Origin: Fictibacillus terranigra | GTDB taxonomy: Bacteria > Bacillota > Bacilli > Bacillales > Fictibacillaceae | Length of the DNA stretch: 64,000 bases | Reading direction: 5' to 3' | Assembly: GCF_030412265.1 (NCBI RefSeq) | Contig: NZ_JAUHLN010000001.1 | Coordinates: 744,001 to 808,000 of the forward strand | Shown here: positions 50,513-56,094 of the stretch, in pieces | Layout of the letters: each line of letters begins with the position of its first letter | Position numbering within the stretch: the stretch's first letter is position 1 | Position numbers and translations under genes: made by a program | The notes under the pieces: generated by a model | The model's database searches: none | Seen by the model: only the letters and a program-made list of their open reading frames with translations | What the model was told of the DNA's origin: nothing

Positions 50513-50873
50513 GGGGACGTTACGGATTCGACAGGGGTAGTTCGAGCTTAAGTTGCGAGTCGAGGGGGTCGGCCTCGTTAAAACGCCAACGCCTATAACT
50601 GGCAAAACTAACAACAACCTAGCTTTAGCTGCGTAATAGCACTTTAGCTGATCCTCCCTCCATCGCCCATGTGGTAGGGTAAGGGTCTCACTCTTAGTGG
50701 GCTACGCCGGCTGTCCTCCGCCTGAGGACGAAGGAAGAGCACAATCAGGCTAGCGCTTCAAACGCCTGTCGGTAGGCAAATGGAGCTGCGAAATGCCAAT
50801 GTATCGACTATACTCGTAGAAGCTTAAGTGCCGTTATCTTTGGACGTGGGTTCGACTCCCACCGTCTCCACCA
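50513..50873 (+). ncRNA. ssrA: transfer-messenger RNA
   Basis: The 5' end GGGGACGTTACGGATTCGACA and the 3' end GTTCGACTCCCACCGTCTCCACCA pair as the tRNA-like acceptor and T arm, with encoded CCA. Length is 361 nt. The tag ORF reads GKTNNNLALAA from GGC 50601 to GCG 50633, then TAA TAG. With the alanine carried by tmRNA the tag is AGKTNNNLALAA, 12 residues, ending in the LAA-type proteolysis signal recognised by ClpXP. It is shorter than the B. subtilis tag (15 residues). Confidence 0.97.
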
Positions 50874-51074: not shown

Positions 51075-51248
51075 TTATGAGCACGCACAGCTGCAGCATG
51101 CTTCCACAGGCGATGCGGTTAGACCCTTGTTTCTTGTTTCACTTTTACTTTTTAGAACCTGCTGATGCATCCAAGCGTTGCGTGTGTCCCTTTCGACCTT
51201 TTCCTGACGAGCTTTCATCCATTGGTAAACCGCATACTCATGAAACAT
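51075..51248 (-). CDS. small protein with C-terminal cysteine cluster, 57 residues (arsenical module)
   Basis: ATG 51248 on the minus strand is preceded by AAAGGAGGAAGTTGT, an ideal ribosome-binding site. The product begins MFHEYAVYQWMKARQEKVER, is charged and helical in the first two-thirds and ends EACCSCACS: four Cys in six residues. It is placed directly after the ArsR-type gene (51323-51673), with two copies of the ATCAA-N6-TTGAT palindrome between them. The Cys tail echoes those of ArsR and ArsI here and suggests binding of trivalent arsenicals. I know of no named family; a metallochaperone or scavenger role is inference. Confidence 0.65.
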   Translation of the reverse strand: MFHEYAVYQWMKARQEKVERDTRNAWMHQQVLKSKSETRNKGLTASPVEACCSCACS

Positions 51249-51269
51249 ACAACTTCCTCCTTTGAATTG

Positions 51270-51307
51270 ATCAAATTATCTTGATATATTAATCAAAAAA
51301 AATTGAT
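51270..51307. promoter_or_regulatory. two ArsR-type operators (O1, O2) before the 57-residue gene
   Basis: Exact ATCAA-N6-TTGAT palindromes at 51270-51285 and 51292-51307, 6 nt apart, 22 nt upstream of the small gene start and just after the arsR stop. A -10-like GATAAT (minus strand) lies in O1, so binding would block initiation there. Confidence 0.7.
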
Positions 51308-51322
51308 TAATTAACGAAAAAT

Positions 51323-51673
51323 TTAACAACAGCTCGGTTTAAAGATGCAACAGAGCTCGTGGGACAACAAATGATTGATTTCTTCAGTGTTGATGTCGTA
51401 GTAGCTCCAAGTGCCTCTCGTTTCTTTGGTAAGGATGTTGGCATCCCATAAGATCTTTAAGTGATACGATAATTTTGATTGCGTCATGTTCATCATTGGA
51501 GCAAGATCACAAACACACATGCTTCCTTTTTGGGTAAGGATGTTCATAATCTGTAACCGCTTTTTGTCGGCCAGCGCTTTGAACTTGCTTTCATACAGCT
51601 CAAATTCTTTATCATTTGAAGGATCTACTGCCTTTTCACTGGAAACGGCAGTAAGTGGGATTTCTTTTTGCAC
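51323..51673 (-). CDS. arsR: ArsR/SmtB-family repressor with Cys-pair tail
   Basis: Winged-helix repressor, 116 residues from GTG 51673 (GAGGTGA 6 nt before it; ATG 51682 in frame lies too close to that site). LADKKRLQIMNILTQKGSMC starts the DNA-binding domain, with CVCDLAPMMNMTQSKLSYHL carrying the alpha-3 metal-site cysteines of ArsR and the recognition helix. The C-terminus ends LCCIFKPSCC, two extra Cys pairs that could take part in binding trivalent (organo)arsenicals. Divergent from the arsI side; promoter TTGACA-N17-TACTAT bracketed by operators. Confidence 0.9.
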   Translation of the reverse strand: MQKEIPLTAVSSEKAVDPSNDKEFELYESKFKALADKKRLQIMNILTQKGSMCVCDLAPMMNMTQSKLSYHLKILWDANILTKETRGTWSYYDINTEEINHLLSHELCCIFKPSCC

Positions 51674-51693
51674 GTCATTCACCTCGATTGAAT

Positions 51694-51709
51694 ATCAAAC
51701 TTTCTTGAT
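51694..51709. promoter_or_regulatory. ArsR-type operator O3 (downstream of arsR promoter)
   Basis: Exact ATCAA-N6-TTGAT, 6 nt downstream of the arsR -10 box on the minus strand. Confidence 0.7.
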
Positions 51710-51715
51710 GTACAT

Positions 51716-51744
51716 ATAGTATATCCAATATTTTCATCTGTCAA
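51716..51744 (-). promoter_or_regulatory. SigA promoter of arsR
   Basis: Minus strand: TTGACA (51744-51739), 17-nt spacer, TACTAT (51721-51716). Flanked by operator O4 7 nt upstream of -35 and O3 6 nt downstream of -10. Confidence 0.78.
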
Positions 51745-51751
51745 CTGATTA

Positions 51752-51767
51752 ATCAAAAATTTTTGAT
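51752..51767. promoter_or_regulatory. ArsR-type operator O4
   Basis: ATCAAAAATTTTTGAT, a perfect 16-bp palindrome, just upstream of the arsR -35 box. Confidence 0.7.
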
Positions 51768-51773
51768 GAAAAA

Positions 51774-51789
51774 ATCAAATTTTTTTGAT
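51774..51789. promoter_or_regulatory. ArsR-type operator O5
   Basis: ATCAA-N6-TTGAT, 8 nt upstream of the arsI-side -35 box. Confidence 0.7.
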
Positions 51790-51797
51790 AAAAAATA

Positions 51798-51826
51798 TTG
51801 CTATTAGCAAAAACTGCTAATATACT
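51798..51826 (+). promoter_or_regulatory. SigA promoter of the arsI transcript
   Basis: TTGCTA at 51798-51803, 17-nt spacer, TATACT at 51821-51826. The spacer is itself the inverted repeat TTAGCA-AAAAC-TGCTAA. Confidence 0.75.
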
Positions 51827-51834
51827 GTGGTTAA

Positions 51835-51850
51835 ATCAAAAAAAATTGAT
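51835..51850. promoter_or_regulatory. ArsR-type operator O6
   Basis: ATCAA-N6-TTGAT, 8 nt downstream of the arsI-side -10 box; mirror image of the O3/O4 layout at the arsR promoter. Confidence 0.7.
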
Positions 51851-51869
51851 TAATAAAGGAGGAAGTGAA

Positions 51870-51983
51870 ATAAACTTGTTTAAGAAATTAACGGGCAAGA
51901 GTTCTAAAAGCACAGAATGATGCTGTAAGGTCGAGATCAAGGAAGTTAAGGAAGAATCCAAAGATGCAACACATGCAGCATAA
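51870..51983 (+). pseudogene. small Cys-pair ORF with in-frame TGA
   Basis: AAAGGAGG at 51855-51862 sits 7 nt before ATA 51870, where an ATG would be expected; the first usable start is TTG 51876, 13 nt away. The frame reads LFKKLTGKSSKSTE, then TGA (51918-51920), then CCKVEIKEVKEESKDATHAA and TAA. The TGA directly precedes a Cys pair. It could come from a duplicated ATG triplet (GAATGCTG to GAATGATGCTG) or a Cys-to-stop change; recoding as selenocysteine is possible in principle, but I see no evidence for it. It is first in the transcript, before arsI. Confidence 0.55.
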
Positions 51984-52007
51984 ATAAACGTAGATGGAGG
52001 TTTTATG

Positions 52008-52451
52008 ATGAAAATGCATGTAGGTATTAATGTCACGGACTTAGAAAGATCTATTGAGTTTTACTCTCAAGTATTTGATTCTGAACCTGTAAAAGTGAAA
52101 GATGACTATGCAAAGTTCTTACTCGAGGATCCACGCCTTAACTTTACGTTAAACCTTAAAAACGAAGTCTCTGGTAATCAGGTTGGTCATTTCGGTTTCC
52201 AAGTGGAAAACGTGGAAGAGGTGCTAAAACACAAGGACCGCTTAGAGAAGTTAGGGTTCTTTGCTCGAGAAGAAATGGATGTTTCTTGCTGCTACGCCAC
52301 TCAGGACAAATTTTGGGTGACGGACCCGAACGGGAATGAATGGGAATTCTTTTACACGAAGAGTGATGTAGAGAGCATGCAAACCGAAGATTCAGCATGT
52401 TGTGCACCGCAGACCCAAAAGATTGAAATTAAAAACAGTTCTTGCTGTTGA
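52008..52451 (+). CDS. arsI: ArsI, carbon-arsenic lyase (organoarsenical dioxygenase)
   Basis: Type I extradiol-like VOC enzyme that cleaves the C-As bond of trivalent methyl- and aryl-arsenicals. ATG 52008 lies 7 nt after GGAGG and gives 147 residues. Probable Fe ligands are His4, His61 (GHFGFQ) and Glu113 (NEWEFFY). The arsenical-binding pair Cys94-Cys95 is in DVSCCYATQDKFW. The tail carries two more pairs (SACCAPQ and SSCC), as in characterised Bacillus ArsI. A terminator follows. Confidence 0.95.
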   Translation: MKMHVGINVTDLERSIEFYSQVFDSEPVKVKDDYAKFLLEDPRLNFTLNLKNEVSGNQVGHFGFQVENVEEVLKHKDRLEKLGFFAREEMDVSCCYATQDKFWVTDPNGNEWEFFYTKSDVESMQTEDSACCAPQTQKIEIKNSSCC

Positions 52452-52735: not shown

Positions 52736-53692
52736 TCAGCCCCAATTTTTCCCTAAAAATTGAACGGCAGGCTGTAAATTGGTTTTGTTCGCAATTTCAA
52801 TGGCAGTGGGAACCACAGAAGGGTCCGTATAGGACAAGTTAGGGATCCGTGGATTTAACCGGAAAAAACGGTTTCCCAGAAGGTTAGAACTGACCATGGT
52901 CTCATAGTAACCGGATCCACTGCCGACAATCGAAAGAAATGGCAGTAAGGGTTCATTGGGCGATCGGTCCAAAAGGACTCCCCAGTTTGGAGGAAGGTCC
53001 TTCAGATTTTCGGGGCGTATGTTATCTGCACTCACCATTCCCCACCCGTGCGTATCTCTTTTTAACCGAGTGGGGGCTTCTCCTGTTCCAATGGATAATA
53101 CCGCAATTTGATCCAATGGCACTTTGGCTTTACCCACTGCAAACGAAATACTGGCTGTACTGGGGTTAGCTGCTACTACATATCCATCCACGTAGTTTTG
53201 ATAGGCTCGTTGATTCGCGGGAGCACCACTGCTCCGCAGTATGACATCACTCGCTTTTTCATCTAAATAGGGAGACCCGGGAAAGTTGTGAAATAGCACA
53301 GGAGTCCAACGATTCAGCTCCGGTGAATATAATTGAAATGCAGGGACTACTATTCGTTTTTTTAAGTTTTTGAGACGAAGATCTGATGGAAAAAAGGTTC
53401 GTACCGCATTAATGAAACCAGAATAGGGCAATTGCTGGTTAAAAACAGGTCCACCTGGCCGGGAAACGCTGAATGCCGGCAGGATTTTTTCCTTAAAATA
53501 CTGGAATATCTCTTTCGGCGATCTTCCACTTGCTAACGCAAGGGCAGTGAATGAACCGATTGAATTTCCGGCGAAAACGTGGGTGTTTCTAATTAATTTT
53601 GGGTTTTGCTGAACCAGTCTGTTCAAAAGCTGTAAACTTAAAGCACCTAAAGTGCCGCCTCCATCAAAGGTCATGATCCGGTATTTTGTCAA
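52736..53692 (-). CDS. patatin-like phospholipase
   Basis: Serine lipid acyl hydrolase, 318 residues from TTG 53692 (AAAGGAG upstream; the frame is open to 53767). FDGGGTLGALSLQLL is the oxyanion loop, GNSIGSFTALAL the nucleophile elbow (G-N-S-I-G), and YVDGYVVAANPS carries the catalytic Asp (DGY in place of the usual DGG/DGA). CBASS-type and lipid-remodelling patatins share these motifs, but no cyclase or other defence gene is adjacent. It sits between two ars units, in convergence with the relic above. Confidence 0.87.
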   Translation of the reverse strand: MTKYRIMTFDGGGTLGALSLQLLNRLVQQNPKLIRNTHVFAGNSIGSFTALALASGRSPKEIFQYFKEKILPAFSVSRPGGPVFNQQLPYSGFINAVRTFFPSDLRLKNLKKRIVVPAFQLYSPELNRWTPVLFHNFPGSPYLDEKASDVILRSSGAPANQRAYQNYVDGYVVAANPSTASISFAVGKAKVPLDQIAVLSIGTGEAPTRLKRDTHGWGMVSADNIRPENLKDLPPNWGVLLDRSPNEPLLPFLSIVGSGSGYYETMVSSNLLGNRFFRLNPRIPNLSYTDPSVVPTAIEIANKTNLQPAVQFLGKNWG

Positions 53693-53767
53693 AGGTGAAT
53701 TCTCCTTTCTCATCTGGCCACAAGTATCATTCAGTGTATGTTTATCTCGTGTCTGTTGTATGGGCAA

Positions 53768-53921: not shown

Positions 53922-53950
53922 TTGCACACATAAGAATATACTTATACAAT
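53922..53950 (+). promoter_or_regulatory. promoter and operator of the arsR-arsB-arsC operon
   Basis: TTGCAC at 53922-53927, 17-nt spacer, TACAAT at 53945-53950. The spacer holds the inverted repeat ATAAG-N6-CTTAT (53930-53945), a candidate operator for the adjacent ArsR. It differs from the ATCAA-N6-TTGAT sites of the arsI module. Confidence 0.7.
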
Positions 53951-53987: not shown

Positions 53988-54335
53988 ATGATATTCAATC
54001 AAACAATGGAATTAGAGACCGCAGCGAGCATTTTAAAGCTATTAGGCGATAAAACGAGATTAGCCATGGTAAAGATTCTCTCAGAAAACGAATGCTGCGT
54101 GTGTGAATTTGTCGATCTCTTTGAAATGAGTCAGCCTGCTGTTAGCCAGCATTTACGGAAACTAAGGGACAGCGGTTTGGTGAAAGAGCGTAGAAAGGGG
54201 CAGTGGATTTATTATTCACTCAACTCCTCCTATCCGTATCATCCGTACGTCCTACAAGTCATTCAGGGCGTACCGAGTCAACGTTATCGTATTGAAGAAT
54301 TAGAAACACAGGGAAAGCGAATTTCTTGTGATTAA
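53988..54335 (+). CDS. arsR: ArsR-family arsenite-responsive repressor
   Basis: It has 115 residues; ATG 53988 with AGGAGG upstream. LKLLGDKTRLAMVKILSENE starts the winged helix, the metal site is ECCVCEFVDLF (three Cys), and the recognition helix is SQPAVSQHLRKLRDSGLV. GQWIYYSLN forms the wing. It is a different subfamily from the ArsR at 51323 and probably senses inorganic arsenite. First gene of arsRBC. Confidence 0.93.
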   Translation: MIFNQTMELETAASILKLLGDKTRLAMVKILSENECCVCEFVDLFEMSQPAVSQHLRKLRDSGLVKERRKGQWIYYSLNSSYPYHPYVLQVIQGVPSQRYRIEELETQGKRISCD

Positions 54336-54353
54336 GTAGGAGGTATCAGTTCT

Positions 54354-55652
54354 GTGGGGTCAGTCATTATTGCCAGCATCATCTTCTTAGTCACACTGAC
54401 GCTTGTGATCTGGCAGCCGAGAGGCCTTAACATCGGATGGAGTGCATGTGGAGGAGCGATTCTTGCTCTTATCTTTCAAGTGGTCTCCTTCCAGGATGTG
54501 ATCGCCGTAACAGGCATTGTTTGGAATGCAACCCTTGCCTTTGTTGCTGTTATTATTATTTCACTCATTTTAGATGAGATCGGATTTTTTGAATGGGCCG
54601 CCCTTCATATGGCTAGCTTTGCCAAAGGGAACGGCATAAAGATGTTCTTGCTGGTGACGGTGCTCGGAGCAGTCGTTGCCGCTTTTTTCGCCAACGATGG
54701 AGCAGCGTTAATTTTAACGCCAATTGTTCTGGCCATGGTTCGAAATTTGAAATTCGAACACAAGATGATCCTGCCGTTCATCATGGCCAGTGGATTCATC
54801 GCTGATACTACATCGTTACCGCTCGTGGTCAGTAACCTGGTAAACATCGTTTCGGCTGACTTTTTCGGCATTAGTTTTTCGACCTATGCCAGCCGAATGA
54901 TTATTCCAAATATCTTTAGCTTACTGGCGAGTATTTTGGTGTTGTATCTTTACTTTAGAAAAAGCATTCCAAACACCTATGACGTCAACCAGTTAAAGAG
55001 GCCAGTGGATGCCATCAAAGATCGGAAGATGTTTAAATCGTCTTGGTTTGTATTGGCAGCGTTACTTGTGGGTTACTTTGTGGGGGAATTCTTCTCAGTA
55101 CCTGTTTCGGTTATCGCTGGAGTGATTGCGATTGTTTTCTTGCAAACGGCAAGAAAAAGCTCAGCCGTTCAAACGAAAACCGTCCTCAAAGGGGCACCGT
55201 GGGCCGTCGTATTCTTCTCGATCGGGATGTATGTGGTCGTGTACGGACTGCGTAACGTAGGATTGACCAATCTCTTAGCGGATCTCATTCAATCTGTGAC
55301 ACATCATGGATTGTTTATCGGAACCATCGGTATGGGCTTTATCGCTGCGATAATTTCGTCGGTTATGAATAACATGCCGACCGTCATGATTGACGCATTA
55401 GCAATCTCTGACACCCACACGACAGGAGCCATGAGAGAAGCCTTGATTTATGCGAACGTCATTGGATCGGACTTAGGACCAAAGCTGACACCAATCGGTT
55501 CATTGGCGACATTGCTTTGGCTGCATGTCTTAAACACAAAAGGCGTCAAGATCTCTTGGGGTTATTACTTCAAAGTGGGAATCGTCTTGACAGTACCGAC
55601 GTTATTCATTACCCTAACGGGCCTCTATATTTGGTTAACCACTATTCATTAA
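54354..55652 (+). CDS. arsB: arsenite efflux membrane protein ArsB
   Basis: Exports arsenite (and antimonite) using the proton gradient. It has 432 residues with about twelve membrane spans. GTG 54354 follows AGGAGGTATCAG. Conserved segments include [19 protein letters not shown] (about residues 105-123) and [18 protein letters not shown] (about 147-164). The alternative family ACR3 has a different N-terminus. It lies between its regulator and the reductase. Confidence 0.95.
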
Positions 55653-55674
55653 TTCTTTAAAGGAGTGTTTCACA

Positions 55675-56094
55675 ATGGCCATAAAAACAATTTACTTCTT
55701 ATGTACTGGAAACTCTTGCAGAAGCCAAATGGCTGAGGGATGGGCAAAGAAGCATTTAGGTGACGAATGGGACGTGAAAAGTGCTGGAATCGAAGCTCAT
55801 GGTCTTAACCCAAATGCGGTAAAAGCGATGAAAGAAGCAGGCATCGATATCTCAAAGCAGACTTCTGATATCATTGATCCAGAAATCTTGAACAATGCAG
55901 ACCTCGTCGTTACTCTTTGCGGGGACGCAGCAGACAAATGCCCAATGACACCACCTCATGTGAAACGTGATCACTGGGGATTTGACGATCCAGCGAAAGC
56001 TCAGGGAACAGAAGAAGAAAAGTGGAAGTTCTTCCAACGTGTACGGGATGAAATCGGGGCTCGCATCGCAACGTTTGCTAAAACGGGAGAGTAA
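55675..56094 (+). CDS. arsC: arsenate reductase, thioredoxin-coupled
   Basis: Reduces arsenate to arsenite for export by ArsB. It has 139 residues with the LMW-phosphatase-like loop CTGNSCRS (Cys10, Cys15) and the relay cysteines Cys82 and Cys89 ([14 protein letters not shown]), the full set of the thioredoxin-linked class. The electrons should come from TrxB/TrxA. AAAGGAGTGTTTCACA precedes ATG. Confidence 0.97.

Follow-up and report, generated by a model that had tools for sequence, protein, structure and literature searches.

The systems closest to the locus described here range from bacterial ars operons and roadblocks formed by the global regulators CcpA and CodY to the terminators of eukaryotic RNA polymerase I; ArsR, ArsI, palindromic operators and engineered ArsR roadblocks are all already known. 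In the skin ars operon of Bacillus subtilis (arsR-arsI-arsB-arsC), an inverted repeat has been suggested 2 bp upstream of the -35 element (accessible text of PMC12607644). In arsenic bioreporters of Escherichia coli, a second ArsR site behind arsR lowers the background while arsR keeps its feedback loop, an arrangement represented by the construct pPR-arsR-ABS-egfp (Stocker 2003, as cited in PMC3918153; both statements follow the available part of PMC3918153). A review (PMC10310618) counts ArsR among the roadblock proteins of E. coli, and CcpA and CodY among those of B. subtilis. For RNA polymerase I, a roadblock protein halts the enzyme in a T-rich stretch that lies 15 bp upstream on the non-template strand, and an RNA hairpin is also held to be needed for termination (both from the accessible part of PMC12366685).

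The locus compared here lies in Fictibacillus terranigra, within a window of 64,000 nt that represents the whole stretch of DNA analyzed. Like the skin operon, it has an ArsR-type repressor and includes arsI in its regulon; it differs from the one suggested operator and one transcript given in the accessible text on that operon by two divergent, bracketed promoters and an intercistronic pair of sites, a comparison of layout and not of the repeat sequences. The arsR gene (51323–51682, minus strand) encodes an ArsR/SmtB repressor with a CVC motif, a conserved CC and a terminal CC, and its product matches HTH_5 (55.4 bits, cut-off 22) and NF033788 (91.5 bits, cut-off 55). The initial annotation had described this ArsR as Cys-tailed, but the tail is not the conserved feature of the protein, as the two terminal cysteines are retained in only 53 and 40 of 109 homologues, whereas the internal CC is present in 108 and both cysteines of the CVC motif in 99. 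As judged from this conservation, the CVC motif and the internal CC would provide cysteines able to bind trivalent arsenic.

Exactly six copies of the palindrome ATCAA-N6-TTGAT were identified in the window, beginning at 51270, 51292, 51694, 51752, 51774 and 51835, which confirms the count and the positions of the initial annotation; their arms are identical and their six core bases vary. Dinucleotide shuffles predict 0.21 copies per 64-kb window, and shuffles of the A+T-rich locus itself (51249–51870) averaged 0.009 copies and never exceeded one, against the six observed. Many copies at unrelated loci, which the initial annotation had named as an argument against its own reading, were not found: the whole genome (4.97 Mb) contains 14 copies, against three of the pattern read backwards as a control, and each of the eight copies off this locus lies inside a stop-free frame of at least 129 codons on the unannotated stretches of about 1 kb around them, so these eight look like chance. 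The six-copy layout itself does not stand out as had been claimed, since 12 of 63 named relatives carry six or seven exact copies.

The sites track this arsR and not arsI, and for this reason we regard them as operators of this ArsR. Of the 63 named loci found with this ArsR, 62 have one or more exact sites, the exception being L097, where a partial ArsR match ends at the contig end; at least three are present in all nine family loci carrying this arsR, and an additional family locus (L144) has two. Among 20 family arsI loci without this arsR within 1.5 kb on either side, 17 have no site and three have one. This co-occurrence supports an operator function of the palindromes for the ArsR encoded among them, and the sites accompany one clade of Bacillales arsR genes. 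The operator role proposed by the initial annotation is thus upheld, as distinct from the looping that it attached to it, which is discussed below. A second ars operon (arsR2, arsB, arsC; 53988–56094) is located in the same window, and a different palindrome with the same 5-6-5 geometry, ATAAG-N6-CTTAT, occurs once in the window, upstream of its ArsR gene (palindrome 53930–53945; gene 53988–54335); the two arsR genes may therefore not share sites.

Four of the predicted operators bracket two divergent promoters. The arsR promoter (TTGACA-N17-TACTAT, 51716–51744, minus strand; TTGACA 51744–51739, TACTAT 51721–51716) has one predicted operator upstream of its -35 element (51752–51767, minus strand) and one just downstream of its -10 element, over the expected start site (51694–51709, minus strand). 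Correspondingly, the arsI-side promoter (TTGCTA-N17-TATACT, 51798–51826, plus strand; TTGCTA 51798–51803, TATACT 51821–51826) has predicted operators upstream of its -35 element (51774–51789, plus strand) and just downstream of its -10 element (51835–51850, plus strand). The gaps between site and promoter are 7 and 6 nt for arsR, and both measure 8 nt at the arsI-side promoter; the mirrored bracketing and the hexamers that had been described are real. A generic promoter scan of the region returned three promoter-like sites against a shuffle mean of 4.7, and with no excess from that scan we accept both promoters because they recur in relatives. There, the arsR promoter is bracketed by a pair of sites 57–60 bp apart in 59 of 73 loci (59 bp in 35 of 60 brackets), the remaining 14 being counted as misses under the rule, some of them cut off or with a single site. 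The opposite promoter is bracketed in 25 of 73 loci at 60–63 bp (62 bp in 16 of 25). TTGACA is the -35 element in 42 of the 60 arsR brackets and TATACT the -10 element in 23 of the 25 arsI-side brackets, counts that are not independent proof because the search rule required TTG and, on the arsI side, also a TATA-like hexamer. The same rule held the arms constant with one mismatch allowed; the six core bases differ by site class.

Looping of the DNA by ArsR bound at distant sites, leading to co-repression or a graded response of both promoters, had been suggested from this mirrored arrangement. It would accord with the several matching sites that flank each promoter on either side and with the spacing of the inner sites (22 bp between 51752 and 51774, close to two helical turns). 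The bracket distances, however, are 58 and 61 bp in the window and differ between the two promoters in relatives too, so they appear not to share one helical phase, and they are approximately what a 29-nt promoter with short gaps dictates. Within the genus, the divergent region also varies in how many sites it holds and in how far apart its promoters stand (the inner sites are a single shared site in L006 and are farther apart in L009), and two 22-bp tandems occur only in the genome of the window among 397 genomes of the order. Looping is thus not supported and seems very unlikely; simple occlusion at the -35 element and the start site explains the bracket arrangement, and looping is not called for.

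We propose, with a probability of roughly 60%, that the six operators act in two layers, promoter occlusion and an intercistronic roadblock. The sequences show the sites, their spacing and conservation, their placement with respect to genes and promoter-like sequences, and the strand-specific T-run; binding, repression, transcription across the pair, the roadblock and any effect of the U-tract are inferred from these. In the first layer (four sites), an ArsR dimer just upstream of the -35 element and another over the start site of each promoter would occlude both divergent promoters until an arsenical releases ArsR. In the second layer (two sites), two dimers spaced by 22 bp, and thus facing roughly the same side of the helix, would sit in transcribed DNA and act as a roadblock to polymerase leaking through arsR, so that low basal transcription keeps the repressor supplied while the effector gene stays off. 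A T-run 10 bp before the blocked site would leave the polymerase stalled within or close to a U-tract and might favour release of the transcript, and arsenic would lift both layers simultaneously. The effector gene here encodes a 57-residue Cys-rich protein (MFHEY...EACCSCACS; 51075–51248, minus strand) and is the first gene behind arsR, preceded by a Shine-Dalgarno-like sequence at 51256–51263 on the same strand.

The second layer comprises the last two sites, which are located between the stop of arsR and the start of the 57-residue gene, 6 nt apart. From arsR, polymerase would reach predicted intercistronic operator 1 (51292–51307, minus strand) first and predicted operator 2 (51270–51285, minus strand) second. 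Among the 397 genomes of the order, 42 contain this 22-bp tandem (site, 6 nt, site), and they represent 20 of 135 genera; the reversed control does not occur in any of the 397. Apart from G025, for which the locus was obtained separately, the tandems of the other genomes gave 40 places to examine, and 37 of these follow an arsR of this clade at a distance of no more than about 130 nt. The remaining three (L160, L163 and L185) have a bracketed, sigma-A-like promoter immediately upstream that is directed into the pair, with its downstream bracket site beginning 55, 116 and 66 bp ahead of the pair, respectively; the pair in these loci would therefore add to a promoter and not replace one. An arsR is present further upstream in L160, and none was found in the fetched stretches L163 and L185. 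The pair is followed by a Shine-Dalgarno-like sequence in 73 of 75 distinct elements. By its position, it probably sits in DNA transcribed from the arsR promoter or another promoter, just before the next gene, and a repressor site in transcribed DNA downstream of a promoter, the placement that characterizes a roadblock, is what the 37 cases behind arsR and the three behind a bracketed, promoter-like sequence appear to display.

The number of sites behind arsR is variable. No site was found there in 8 of 106 loci under the search rule, while Bacillus sp. FJAT-29814 (L040) has three at 22-bp steps (3344, 3366 and 3388). In L160, the pair precedes a frame (1606–2472) that by eye resembles a membrane permease and not a Cys protein, and it thus looks as if the element precedes effector genes of more than one kind.

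These sites are often accompanied by a run of five or more Ts. In the window, T5 (51317–51321) on the coding, non-template strand of arsR has its last T 10 bp before operator 1, and the T8 core of operator 1 in turn ends 10 bp before operator 2. A run ending at -10 on the coding strand precedes 72 of 99 first sites behind arsR and 62 of 83 later sites, the T-run of a later site being as a rule the core of the preceding one. It precedes 0/105, 1/85 and 0/58 promoter-side sites, a contrast that is partly a matter of course, as the start-site operator closely follows a -10 box. The sides that hold no promoter box are for that reason the telling controls, and on them the run was found in 1 of 85 cases (upstream of the -35 site) and in 2 of 105 (beside the start-site operator, towards the gene). 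On the opposite strand, a T-run stands at -10 in 10 of 98 first sites, none of 83 later sites and 2/105, 0/86 and 0/58 promoter-side sites.

The T-run is strong in nearer relatives (60 of 64 loci of the named set and the family of the window) and weak further out (15 of 38 distant genomes of the order). It ends at -10 in L160 and L185 and at -12 in L163, as read from sequence, and it also stands at -10 in 22 of 25 sites behind arsR that lack a 22-bp partner. Of 34 family genomes, 26 were positive in a search for T5-N9-site that was not anchored on arsR, and 1 was positive with the pattern reversed, a control that tests composition and not whether the position of the T-run is special. We considered and rejected the T-run as part of the arsR stop region, because the distance from stop to site varies while the run stays at -10: the distance is 14 to 105 nt in the tandem class and up to 126 nt in the single class, which also holds L010–L012, L036 and L061 (a second site at another spacing), L049 and L068 (a degraded neighbour), and L084 and L160 (a further site outside the search window or the mismatch rule). 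An intrinsic terminator before the run was likewise rejected, since no general hairpin was found in the 34 nt of RNA upstream of it (mean z -0.47 with simple shuffles; -8 kcal/mol or lower in 13 of 75). The pair behind arsR with its T-run is the most conserved and most informative part of the arrangement, with the relatives in all these counts not independent of each other.

The intercistronic pair could also be part of a third promoter, that of the 57-residue gene, which would make all six sites plain promoter operators, with the pair flanking or overlapping that promoter and the T-run serving as its UP element. Of 75 elements, 17 have TAATAT as the 6-nt spacer of the pair, its commonest form, and 9 have TATTAT, the commonest core of the second site (TATAAT in 4); all of these are -10-like, and the T-run is placed where an UP element might sit. 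On the other hand, no conserved -35 element accompanies them, and the best sigma-A match around the first site scores 8.24 of 12 against 8.60 in shuffled sequences (n = 98), compared with 10.14 against 8.83 upstream of arsR. The last base of the supposed -10 element (position 21) is A in 32, T in 27, C in 13 and G in 3 of 75 elements, and in three loci the pair closely follows a promoter-like sequence. Moreover, 12 of 24 loci inspected have a single site (two of them, L049 and L068, with a degraded site copy just before it) with a Shine-Dalgarno-like sequence only 17–24 nt from the site start, so that a promoter with the T-run as its UP element would lack room. We consider a third promoter rather doubtful and retain the roadblock as the preferred function of the pair.

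Two further explanations concern the T-run alone. It may be a structural A-tract that bends the DNA or aids ArsR binding and plays no role in elongation, which would be compatible with a plain roadblock; the two T-runs of a pair are 22 bp apart, near two helical turns, and A- or T-rich cores are common in every site class. A palindrome, however, gives ArsR no preferred side, yet the run lies on the transcription-upstream side and on the coding strand, and it is nearly absent from the box-free sides of promoter sites given above; this explanation is unlikely. ArsR may simply favour T-rich cores, in keeping with T6 as the commonest core upstream of the arsR -35 element as well (19 of 60).

Beyond the roadblock itself, ArsR and the T-run together might constitute a ligand-controlled, protein-dependent terminator of Bacillales that needs no hairpin, in which the transcript would end in the U-tract and be released, and which arsenic would turn off. 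We advance this tentatively, as a possible rather than a probable extension of the two-layer scheme. It would share with the RNA polymerase I terminators (Reb1, Nsi1, TTF1) a protein roadblock and a T-rich stretch on the non-template strand, here placed at roughly -16 to -10. Those terminators are eukaryotic, are not ligand-controlled and are said to need a hairpin, according to the accessible text of PMC12366685, whereas no general hairpin was found here; the role of the U-tract is for this reason only a proposal. The CcpA and CodY roadblocks likewise involve a repressor in transcribed DNA that stops polymerase, and the accessible text of PMC10310618 names no fixed T-run for them.

Several neighbouring genes were also annotated. 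The gene of the C–As lyase family arsI (NF041414, 171.5 bits, cut-off 116) is located at 52005–52451 on the plus strand. Two small Cys-rich families recur in these regulons, one (MFNEYE...) behind arsR and another (FKKLxGK...CCxVEIKEV) on the arsI side or elsewhere; the 57-residue protein and a small Cys frame of the window have no match in Pfam or NCBIfam. The Cytobacillus plasmid pBO1 has two small genes, annotated as hypothetical, at corresponding positions, matched by position alone. A patatin-like phospholipase gene (52736–53767, minus strand) lies between arsI and the second ars operon; it has no match in eight fetched stretches of family relatives, and its similarity to CBASS phospholipase models is weak and far under the cut-offs. 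The ars cluster might be read as a mobile island with the tmRNA gene (50513–50873) directly upstream of it. SmpB-tmRNA is located beside the ars cluster in one of four same-genus genomes fetched (L143, G025) and not in stretches L140, L141, L142 and L144, and tmRNA is not beside the cluster in the fetched stretches of G020, G021 and G024.

The small Cys frame (51870–51983, plus strand) lies between the arsI-side promoter and arsI and contains an in-frame TGA (51918–51920) right before Cys-Cys. The source genome encodes SelB, tRNA-Sec and SelA over the cut-off, and a SelD-like frame with an in-frame TGA in KGGUGCK (stretch L131, 4705–5763) stands beside selA, selB and tRNA-SeC(tca), so that its set for selenocysteine decoding is complete-looking; among the 397 genomes of the order, 181 have a SelA over the cut-off. 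We nevertheless rejected a selenoprotein reading of the small frame, on the grounds of no hairpin, no TGA in relatives and an ATA start column. The hairpin z after its TGA is 0.74 (50 nt) and -0.65 (63 nt), compared with -2.21 and -1.80 for the SelD frame of the genome. Neither TGA nor Cys was found at this position in homologues aligned by eye, which have D, S, N, E, G, K, P or other residues before CC, and among matches with E of 0.01 or better in 397 genomes the TGA occurs only in the source genome. The start column reads ATA by eye, with an alternative TTG at 51876, in place of ATG in relatives (TTG in L009), and the C-terminal CC of many relatives is absent here as it is in L102, L103 and others. 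On selenoproteins and arsenic together, the open-licence literature gave a single review, on plants. This frame is very probably a decayed gene, and its use of selenocysteine is quite improbable.

In open-licence literature, searched by titles and opening abstracts, in which motifs are hard to find by word, we found no description of ATCAA-N6-TTGAT as an ArsR site or of a natural ArsR roadblock in Bacillales, nor, in the same literature, of a natural double site behind arsR with a strand-specific T-run. An ArsR site behind arsR is also what biosensor engineers added by hand in E. coli. The engineered site has E. coli sequence, as described in the available text of PMC3918153, whereas the site reported here is natural, often double at 22 bp and often accompanied by a T-run. 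These findings suggest that many Bacillales separate a constant supply of repressor from the silence of the effector gene by means of a repressor site within the operon. If the T-run helps to free the stalled polymerase, the element would be a simple ligand-controlled terminator, and T-runs before other operators within operons would be worth seeking. If true, the ArsR/T-run terminator would give bacteria a switchable equivalent of the RNA polymerase I terminators that combine a protein with a T-run.
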